Assembly (NCBI GenBank): GCA_905233545.1
Contig: CAJOEV010000019.1
Span: 1-45,918, forward strand
DNA: 45,918 bases
Reading direction: 5' to 3'
Origin: an uncultured Eubacterium sp.
GTDB lineage: Bacteria > Bacillota > Clostridia > Oscillospirales > Acutalibacteraceae
Shown: positions 1-14,785 of the stretch, piece by piece
Layout of the letters: every line of letters starts with the position of its first letter
How positions within the stretch are numbered: the first letter of the stretch is position 1
Translations under genes and position numbers: made by a program
The notes under the pieces: model-generated
Databases searched by the model: none
What the model was told of the DNA's origin: nothing
Seen by the model: the letters and a program-made list of their open reading frames with translations, nothing else

Positions 1-182
1 TTTGCCTTGTCTTACACAAAAATCTGAATTTTTGAGGTGCGAAGCAATTTTGAGATAGGAATTTTTCGTTAGAACAATGAACAAATAAGGGTTAAGGCTG
101 ACGCCTTAATCCTTATTTTGAAGCAGTTATAGCGGAAAATAACATTTCAAAATCTGTTAAATCCCTTAGTTACCCACCCTTT
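1..182. mobile_element. MITE-like element, copy A (left end outside window)
   Basis: The sequence aligns with 14161-14342 at roughly 80 percent by eye, including the shared core tgagatagg, a central hairpin (arms 83-98 and 103-118, loop tgac) and the right terminal repeat at 154-180. The left terminal repeat would fall about 48 nt before base 1, so the copy is cut by the window edge. The right end is followed by TT, then CG, the arm AGTTGGC (185-191) and six T (192-197), which looks like the 3' half of a rho-independent terminator. It lies downstream of pyrI. No transposase is encoded. Confidence 0.7.
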
Positions 183-13460: not shown

Positions 13461-14075
13461 ATGGATAACGAAAACATCAAAAACACTAATGAAGAAGTAA
13501 AAAAGCAAAAATCGAAGCTAAGAGAAACGCTTGATTTCTTTCTTCCGATTATAATTGCTCTCATTGTTGCAATGCTTCTTAAAACCTTTATATTTGCTAA
13601 TGCAGTTGTTCCGACAGGCTCAATGCTGAATACAATTCACGAGGGCGACAGAATTATTGCAAGCCGAATTGAGTACAATTTCAACGACCCAGAAAGATTT
13701 GACATAATCATTTTCAAAGCTCCCGATGAGGTTGCCAAAGGAAACGAAAAAGAATACTATGTTAAAAGAATTATCGGGCTCCCGGGTGAAACAGTAACAA
13801 TTGTCAACGGCGTTGTTTATGTTGCCAATGCAAGCGGAAAAACAACCCAGCTCAGGGACGATTTTGTTACCGCCTGCACACCGACGGGCAATTTCGGACC
13901 ATATACAGTTCCCGAAAACAGCTATTTCGTTATGGGCGATAACAGAGAAAATTCCATTGACTCGCGCTATTGGGCTACAACAAATTATGTTGATGAGGAT
14001 TTGATTATCGGCAAGGTAAAATTCAGATATTATCCCTTCGACAAATTCGGAAAGCTTGATAAAGAGGATTATTAA
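13461..14075 (+). CDS. lepB: Signal peptidase I
   Basis: Membrane-anchored protease that removes Sec/Tat signal peptides. The 204-aa protein has one N-terminal membrane segment (about 27-50). The catalytic Ser54 lies in PTGSML, the general base Lys102 in YYVKRIIGLPGE, and the C-terminal GDNRENSIDSRYW box is present. Single-span topology is the Gram-positive type. GAGGAC precedes the ATG. It follows the glycosidase closely and probably shares its transcript. It converges on the atp operon, with a transposon-interrupted terminator between them. Confidence 0.95.
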   Translation: MDNENIKNTNEEVKKQKSKLRETLDFFLPIIIALIVAMLLKTFIFANAVVPTGSMLNTIHEGDRIIASRIEYNFNDPERFDIIIFKAPDEVAKGNEKEYYVKRIIGLPGETVTIVNGVVYVANASGKTTQLRDDFVTACTPTGNFGPYTVPENSYFVMGDNRENSIDSRYWATTNYVDEDLIIGKVKFRYYPFDKFGKLDKEDY

Positions 14076-14094: not shown

Positions 14095-14356
14095 AAAAAC
14101 AGCACTCGGTTAGGGCGTTGAACTTAGGGATTTGATAGCCTCAAAATGCATATTTTAGCGAAATACTGCGTTAAAAATGCTCGGAATAAACAAATTATTC
14201 CTGTGCTTTTTGAGATAGGTATTTTTCGTTATAACAATGAATAAACAGGGCTTAAGGCTGGCGCCTTAAGCCCTGTTTTGAAGCAGTTAGAGCGAAAAAG
14301 AGCATTTCAAAATCTATTAAATCCCTAAGTTCAACGCCCTTTGAGTGCTGTTTTTT
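14095..14356. terminator. Bidirectional terminator interrupted in its loop
   Basis: The left arm AAAAACAGCACTC (14095-14107) and right arm GAGTGCTGTTTTT (14343-14355) are perfectly complementary over 13 bp. They are flanked by A and T runs, which is the form of a bidirectional rho-independent terminator between lepB and atpC. The 235 nt between them contain a MITE-like element. Removing the element and one TT restores a GGTT tetraloop. The inverted-repeat insert prolongs the stem, so termination may survive. Confidence 0.8.
14112..14340. mobile_element. MITE-like element, copy B (complete)
   Basis: The element is about 229 nt with 27-nt terminal inverted repeats (14112-14138 and 14314-14340) that differ at one position. 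Outer ends are AGGGCG...CGCCCT, flanked by a TT on each side (possible 2-bp target duplication). A perfect 16-bp central hairpin (14243-14258 / 14263-14278, loop tggc) and imperfect complementarity elsewhere mean it can fold along its length. There is no coding frame, so movement would need a transposase in trans. The 1-182 copy is its relative. Confidence 0.8.
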
Positions 14357-14768
14357 ATATATTGTGTCTGTTTTTAATTTTAAGTCGTTCCATTGCTCGC
14401 GCAAGGTCATTCTTTGATTGATGGTATTCGAAAATTGACTGTTTCTGACGAAGCGCTTCCTCTGCTCTGATTTTAGCTTCTTCAGCTCTTTTAGAATCTA
14501 TTTCTTCAGGCTTTTCAACAGAAATGCAAACAACATATGCCACATTATCAAAATACTCAATAAAGCCTCCTGAAATAAATGCGTCTATTACCTCATTATC
14601 GGGAGTTTTAATAACCACCTCGCCCGATTCAAGGGGAGCAACCGTGTTTTCGTGATGAGCAAGGAAACCCATCTGACCTCCGTCCGCAATCGGCAGAGTC
14701 AGCGAAACACATTCACCGTCAAAAAAGGTTTTGTTTGAGGCAATAATTTTCAGTTTAAATGTATTCAA
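14355..14768 (-). CDS. atpC: ATP synthase F1 epsilon subunit
   Basis: Epsilon links the gamma rotor to the c ring and inhibits ATP hydrolysis. It has the N-terminal beta-sandwich (FKLKIIASNKTFF ... LPIADGGQMGFLAHHEN) and a C-terminal helical hairpin (from about EEIDSKRAEEAK). The frame opens at a GTG at 14777, but AGGTGA overlaps that codon. The TTG at 14768 (MNTFKLKI) is properly spaced behind AGGTGA and is chosen, giving 137 aa. The stop codon directly abuts the terminator stem. It is the last gene of the atp operon. Confidence 0.93.
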   Translation of the reverse strand: MNTFKLKIIASNKTFFDGECVSLTLPIADGGQMGFLAHHENTVAPLESGEVVIKTPDNEVIDAFISGGFIEYFDNVAYVVCISVEKPEEIDSKRAEEAKIRAEEALRQKQSIFEYHQSKNDLARAMERLKIKNRHNI

Positions 14769-14785
14769 TCCACTCACCTCAATAT

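Follow-up and report, generated by a model that had tools for sequence, protein, structure and literature searches.

The window, which is the whole 45,918-nt stretch of DNA that was analysed, carries a lepB-like gene on the + strand and atpC on the - strand, with a non-coding element of 229 nt between them. Coordinates of the features are given in Table 1. The name lepB is presumptive and follows the sequence-only reading (an earlier annotation of the same letters), and atpC is likewise what we take the second gene to be. Relatives of atpC were found in 70 of 80 genomes of the genus, which belongs to the gut Clostridia. The element is bounded by 27-nt terminal inverted repeats (TIRs) with one mismatch between them, and the ORF list shows none of 60 aa or longer within it. 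Two 13-nt arms of perfect complementarity, AAAAACAGCACTC on the left and GAGTGCTGTTTTT on the right, lie outside the element; their outer ends are an A run (left) and a T run (right). A TT dinucleotide adjoins each end of the element, so that a terminator with a GGTT tetraloop is left when the element is removed together with one TT. Because lepB and atpC converge, this predicted terminator would be common to both genes. The coordinates, letters, TIRs and length given in the sequence-only reading were exact, and its description of a coding-free element between perfectly complementary arms, with a tetraloop restored by excision, agrees with the letters of the window; the bidirectional lepB/atpC terminator that it proposed is a prediction that the convergent ORFs and the arms fit.

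The 273-nt region of arms and element was predicted to fold as one long hairpin on either strand, at -128.8 kcal/mol (+) and -119.3 kcal/mol (-), with z scores of -16.1 (+) and -15.7 (-) against 200 dinucleotide shuffles. The stem score of the window arms has an empirical p of 0.0019 against mismatched flanks. A GC stem, a short loop and a T run are all present at the host site, as in an intrinsic terminator predicted from sequence. No Rfam match at gathering score was found in the window, and a known RNA family was rejected as the identity of the element for that reason.

Table 1. Features at the lepB-atpC junction, with the second copy at the start of the window.
Feature	Position	Strand	Basis or remark
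Second copy, A'-type, right part, cut by contig start; T run after	1..180	+	TIR end 154-180
lepB-like signal peptidase gene, + strand side of terminator	13461..14075	+	ORF
Host terminator left arm (A run + CAGCACTC)	14095..14107	+	Complementary to 14343-14355; stem score 32
Left TT, putative crossover dinucleotide	14110..14111	+	Exactly TT duplicated at sister site versus empty sites
MITE-like element, family A, 229 bp, non-coding	14112..14340	+	78-91% to three other full-length own-genome places
Left TIR, 27 nt, putative recombinase half-site	14112..14138	+	
Internal hairpin h1, A run before, T run after	14173..14211	+	Inner stem folds
Internal hairpin h2, 16 bp stem, terminator-shaped	14243..14278	+	Pattern scan and covariation
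Right TIR, 27 nt, one mismatch to left	14314..14340	-	
Right TT copy	14341..14342	+	
Host terminator right arm (GAGTGCTG + T run)	14343..14355	+	
atpC (ATP synthase epsilon), - strand side of terminator	14355..14777	-	ORF

Copies and families of the element

Families were defined by their TIRs as A (AGGGCGTTG...), with a variant A' (AGGGTGGGC...), B (GGGGCGNCCGTCATAA...) and C (AGGCGAGGTGCGRTAACGAAGG...), and families B and C have interior parts in common with family A of the window. A search for further copies, which had been proposed with the sequence-only reading, gave matches at 12 separate places in the element's own genome as a minimum and more in the genus, so the element is not unique to its locus. 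Four of the 12 places are full-length (78-100% identity), three are diverged and five are cut by contig ends, one of the cut copies being the window's own first 180 bases. The ends of contigs C18, C19, C40, C41 and C43 of the assembly fall within such copies, and with five contig ends inside copies the assembly seems to have been broken at the repeats. Most genomes of the genus are in pieces, their contigs stopping within these repeats, and copy counts for the genus are to be read as "at least".

The TIR patterns of A, B and C were found in 9, 16 and 21 of the 80 genus genomes, respectively, with one mismatch tolerated for A and two each for B and C; the own genome was among those with A and C, and a reversed control TIR pattern was found in 0 of 80. 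In a public set of species genomes, the A pattern was found in 29 stretches, all of them titled as Clostridia-type MAGs (Eubacterium, Oscillospiraceae, Clostridiaceae or Clostridia), and several have the gut of deer, sheep or goat in their names. Among 398 genomes of the GTDB family (7 from this genus), A-type ends were found in four, namely the own genome, G031 of the genus and two in other genera, and C-type ends in three, namely the own genome and two in other genera. No match to the window element was found in plasmid and phage collections, from which near records were possibly left out. The 13 single matches of the TIR-A pattern in viral contigs were taken as chance, and the exact TIR-B and TIR-C patterns had no match there.

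Both ends could be delimited for 54 copies (30 A, 9 B and 15 C), which are a subset of all copies. The moved unit in these copies is 126-322 bp long and gene-free. As in MITEs, the elements are short, bounded by TIRs, without a transposase gene and present in many dispersed copies.

Some sites are more complex. At L122 (G069:C4), a B element lies beside a B-end-like sequence in the same terminator, by nesting or by repeated use of the site. C ends lie downstream of homologous genes, presumably malic-enzyme-like ORFs, in two species (L241 at G012:C10 and L264 at G014:C57), either as independent hits or as an old shared insertion. Solitary B ends at L215, L217 and L228 are followed directly by another hairpin and look like relics of elements whose remainder was replaced. 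Single B-type ends (L212, L213, L215 and L217) were also considered as ends of autonomous transposons, a candidate that was rejected when no transposase was seen by eye among the ORFs; some of these ends resemble end relics beside another hairpin.

Flanks and internal hairpins

Flank tests were done on 52 copies after L042 and L260 had been dropped for their short flanks. The element was found mostly in the loops of terminator hairpins, which is the location that the sequence-only reading had suggested would emerge from a tabulation of flanks. A stem score of at least 20 within 8 nt of the junction, a threshold set after inspection of the null distribution, was reached by 36 of the 52 A/B/C copies and by 5.4% of mismatched flank pairs. 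The mean stem score was 23.9 against a permutation maximum of 14.5, with 0 of 20,000 partner permutations reaching the observed value. In control MITE families of the genus (D-H), a strong stem was found in 1 of 29 copies (Fisher p 3e-9 versus A/B/C), and an A run on the left with a T run on the right was found in 39/52 A/B/C copies versus 3/29 control copies. Since the controls were handled in the same way and rarely have a stem, neither intergenic location nor the method explains the A/B/C result.

The same controls bear on the idea that insertion between genes is random and that selection leaves mainly the harmless copies in terminator loops. Such loops are plausible as safe sites, but the D-H families, with a stem in so few copies, indicate that other sites are tolerated, and selection alone would not bring the 2-bp repeat to the dyad or close to it, where it is found (see below). 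Random insertion with selection was rejected on the control families and is considered very improbable.

The remaining 16 of the 52 copies are under the stem threshold; L025 and L071 among these have short arms by eye, and L004, L240 and L259 have almost no stem (scores 6, 6.5 and 7). Outside the genus, the left flank of the A-type copies of G094 is an A run, an arm and TT in 4/4 copies, which were examined after the rule was formed and whose right flanks lie beyond contig ends. In G138, also of another genus, one paired copy has complementary GC arms, with no TT repeat and no T run directly after the arms.

The internal hairpin h2 is present in 50 of the 54 delimited copies (absent in L011, L068, L246 and L259) and covaries. 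Across 29 distinct stems, positions 8-13 use three to four Watson-Crick pair types and are paired in 28-29 of 29, and position 5 is paired in 20 only, most C stems having a T-T mismatch there. The figures count stems from three related families and do not stand for independent events. Hairpin h2 bears A and T runs and is terminator-like on the - strand (1 match versus a shuffle mean of 0.5). Hairpin h1 lies in the segment (q55-101) that is most widely common to the MITE families of the genus among the matches listed.

Families D-H (L036-L038, L104-L133 and others) have an internal hairpin core in common with A/B/C and differ in their ends, and hairpin cores and ends seem to have been exchanged between MITE families. 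At the D-H junctions, T precedes and A follows the element in 24/29 copies, which suggests a TA-duplicating transposase for these families.

Because the complementary arms are extended by the TIRs and the internal hairpins are terminator-shaped, termination for the convergent neighbours is probably retained after insertion, and the element may do little harm where it lands, as far as can be judged from the letters.

Empty sites and the core dinucleotide

An A' insertion (G000:C28:1946-2222) is also present in G016, where it is 96% identical, and is absent in G012 and G020 (flanks 99% identical) and in G045. Among the matches listed, this is the sole site with strict empty counterparts. The empty site reads AAAAAACTCCTCATCC-ATTT-GGATGGGGAGTTTTT, a perfect terminator with an ATTT loop, and the filled site reads ...CATCCATT[element]TTTGGATG...; TT alone, located on the dyad, is duplicated at the filled site. 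Filled and empty states with a TT repeat, as expected of a mobile MITE, were thus found at one site. A variant terminator without the element is present at that site in G019. Identity in this region is 96-99% between species that differ by about 15% or more around atpC, and with identity above the atpC level the region either moved horizontally or lies in some contigs that were mis-binned. Whichever is the cause, one and the same terminator is seen there both with and without the element.

At the lepB-atpC site itself, no strict empty counterpart was found among the atpC loci of 29 relatives, and in none of these loci did the stretch examined have lepB next to atpC. A terminator-like hairpin follows atpC in 22 of 27 assessable relatives (2 were too short), and in one of the 22, L142, the hairpin belongs to another MITE. 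The empty sites that the sequence-only reading had expected in relatives were accordingly obtained for one sister insertion, in three genomes, and not for the window copy.

These data also bear on whether the whole structure could be one composite, immobile terminator conserved at the locus. It does fold as one long hairpin, but it is multicopy with unrelated flanks, and its sister copy has empty sites, on which this explanation was rejected; there is practically no chance that it is correct.

The flanking dinucleotides, read in the orientation of the element, were TT/TT in 39, AA/AA in 4 and other in 9 of the 52 copies, and the ratio of TT/TT to AA/AA was 23:1 for A, 9:0 for B and 7:3 for C. 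A 2-bp core repeat, as would be expected of a derivative of a large serine recombinase (LSR) element, is therefore present at both ends in 43/52 copies, and 9/52 are without a clean 2-bp repeat. In a palindromic target the central dinucleotide is nearly the only cue, so the TT bias fits a serine recombinase whose 2-bp core is non-palindromic.

TIRs with a 2-bp duplication would also fit IS30, and the mover could be a DDE transposase that prefers palindromes and duplicates 2 bp, the LSR neighbours described below being coincidental. A model is IS1630 of Mycoplasma fermentans, an IS30-type element that, according to the title of a paper cited in PMC3317919, targets and duplicates inverted repeats of variable sequence. 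According to PMC3317919, however, the duplications of IS1630 are 16-26 bp in 4/7 copies of one genome, not 2 bp, and the element is autonomous with an IS30-family transposase; here TT only is duplicated at the site with empty counterparts, orientation is locked to TT (39 versus 4) and LSR elements end in C-element sequence. An IS30-like origin is on this evidence unlikely.

Serine recombinases and the terminator as their probable target

LSR genes were found beside B-type and C-type ends and, once, beside an A-type end. In another genus, about 75 bp separate a C-like end from the stop of an LSR gene with Resolvase, Recombinase, Zn_ribbon_recom and DUF4368 domains. Relatives of this LSR (E up to 1e-15) were found in 46 of the 80 genus genomes. 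At G011:C8, G011:C65, G049:C43, G020:C17 and G021:C177, no more than 0.4 kb separates an LSR match from a B or C end. About 200 bp of the C element (74-272 or 74-278) align after the LSR stop at L301 (89%), L302 (86%) and L318 (92%), so that the small element looks like transposon ends without genes. Ends in common with DUF4368 LSR elements were found at several loci for B and C and at one locus only for A (L309 in G031), where an A-type end with no pattern mismatch has its outer base 61 nt after the LSR stop, beside a T-run arm. The link of family A to the LSRs consists of this genus locus and of a distant resemblance between the A core and one C-type LSR end (76%, E 2e-8).

LSR genes of the own genome are located on C49, C72, C73 and C4, and A-type ends were seen beside none of them; the C72 gene is C-type (93% to L302). 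The LSR fragment on C73 lies beside an ORF that we take to be relaxase-like and has relatives at 66-76%, and no A-type end was found in the sequence downstream of its relatives L315, L317 and L319. In a search for an LSR element with both family ends, L376, L377, L378, L384 and L385, where contigs break, gave one end and no second. The LSR with the A-type end (L309/L376, G031:C12), whose other end was among those not found, adjoins presumably phage-like genes and may be carried by a satellite or prophage. A cassette of tnpV (PF14198) and DUF6809 (PF20648) adjoins B/C half-elements at L281-L287 (e.g., L267:1596-2699), with its junction near the position of the B/C central hairpin and no recombinase ORF in the cassettes beside half-elements. 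G014 and G020 have in common, at 98% identity, a 5.5-kb stretch that stops 4 bp past a C end.

MITEs usually derive from DDE transposons. The ends of families B and C are those of LSR elements and not of a DDE transposon (for A this was seen at one locus only), and the label "MITE-like" is used here for that reason. The element is best explained, with a probability of about 0.8, as a MITE-like derivative of a Tn4451/TnpX-type LSR transposon for which the terminator dyad is attB. A DUF4368 LSR would integrate the non-autonomous element into intrinsic terminators, and in the own genome such an enzyme would move family A in trans. In the excised circle, the two TIRs would be joined across TT to form attP, and attB would be a palindromic terminator with TT (or AA) near the dyad. 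Recombination at the 2-bp core would leave TT at both ends with the orientation fixed. The insertion would split the terminator, with the arms staying complementary and the stem being extended by the TIRs, and the internal terminator-shaped hairpins would re-supply termination.

Related enzymes are known from a multi-targeting LSR clade in which 63% have DUF4368 and which includes TndX-like enzymes; the core of one LSR is TT, with enrichment of T and A at the ends, and the motif of Cp36 is A-rich/AA/T-rich (PMC10083194, in part). Tn4451 has low specificity and recombines at 2-bp identical sequences, according to the available part of PMC5704250. The families described here resemble these systems in having a linked recombinase with the same Pfam domains, many target sites, and a TT or AA core within A-/T-rich flanks, and the TnpV cassette adjoining half-elements is a likeness to Tn4451/TnpX. 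They differ in that the target is a terminator loop and the unit is 126-322 bp without genes. The terms "terminator", "hairpin", "palindrom" and "inverted repeat" have 0 occurrences each in the main text of PMC10083194 as available, and "terminator" has 0 in the available part of PMC5704250.

An LSR might read only an A-rich/TT/T-rich motif and hit terminators as matches to it, the hairpin having no role in recognition; apart from the role of the hairpin, this is compatible with derivation from an LSR transposon. When 43 sites were aligned on the core, A was strongly enriched 10-19 nt to the left and T 10-19 nt to the right, in accordance with a motif such as that of Cp36. At equal A/T richness (A+T of 16 or more), however, a stem was formed at 19/25 insertion sites versus 23/134 background TT sites, a background from nine stretches that includes true terminators and elements and in which C-rich/G-rich half-sites were unmatched, and the G138 copy has arms yet no T run directly after them. 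With a small background and unmatched arms, the comparison supports, and does not prove, recognition of the dyad itself beyond an A/T motif, and recognition of the motif alone keeps a chance only somewhat short of even.

Pneumococcal SPRITE, RUP and BOX, as prokaryotic MITEs, are also short, TIR-bounded, intergenic and hairpin-forming, and SPRITE is terminator-like (PMC10969869). In the available part of that review, "serine" has 0 occurrences and terminator loops are not mentioned as a target, and no terminator-targeted serine-recombinase MITE was found by title or start of abstract in the open-licence literature. The elements described here are probably a serine-recombinase MITE family with terminator loops as attB. 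The wider proposal, that terminators are a general safe harbour of the DUF4368 clade, could equally well hold or fail; under it, the AT-rich attB sites of multi-targeting enzymes would be terminators read as TT/AA dyads, and MITE-like passengers would re-supply two-way termination and make insertion near-neutral. If the explanation is true, it would add a kind of MITE that searches of the open-licence literature did not list, moved by a serine recombinase, targeted to terminators and carrying its own terminator-shaped hairpin. It would also provide a testable targeting rule, a hairpin dyad with a TT/AA core, and would reveal the real aim of a low-specificity recombinase clade that is already in use in genome engineering.
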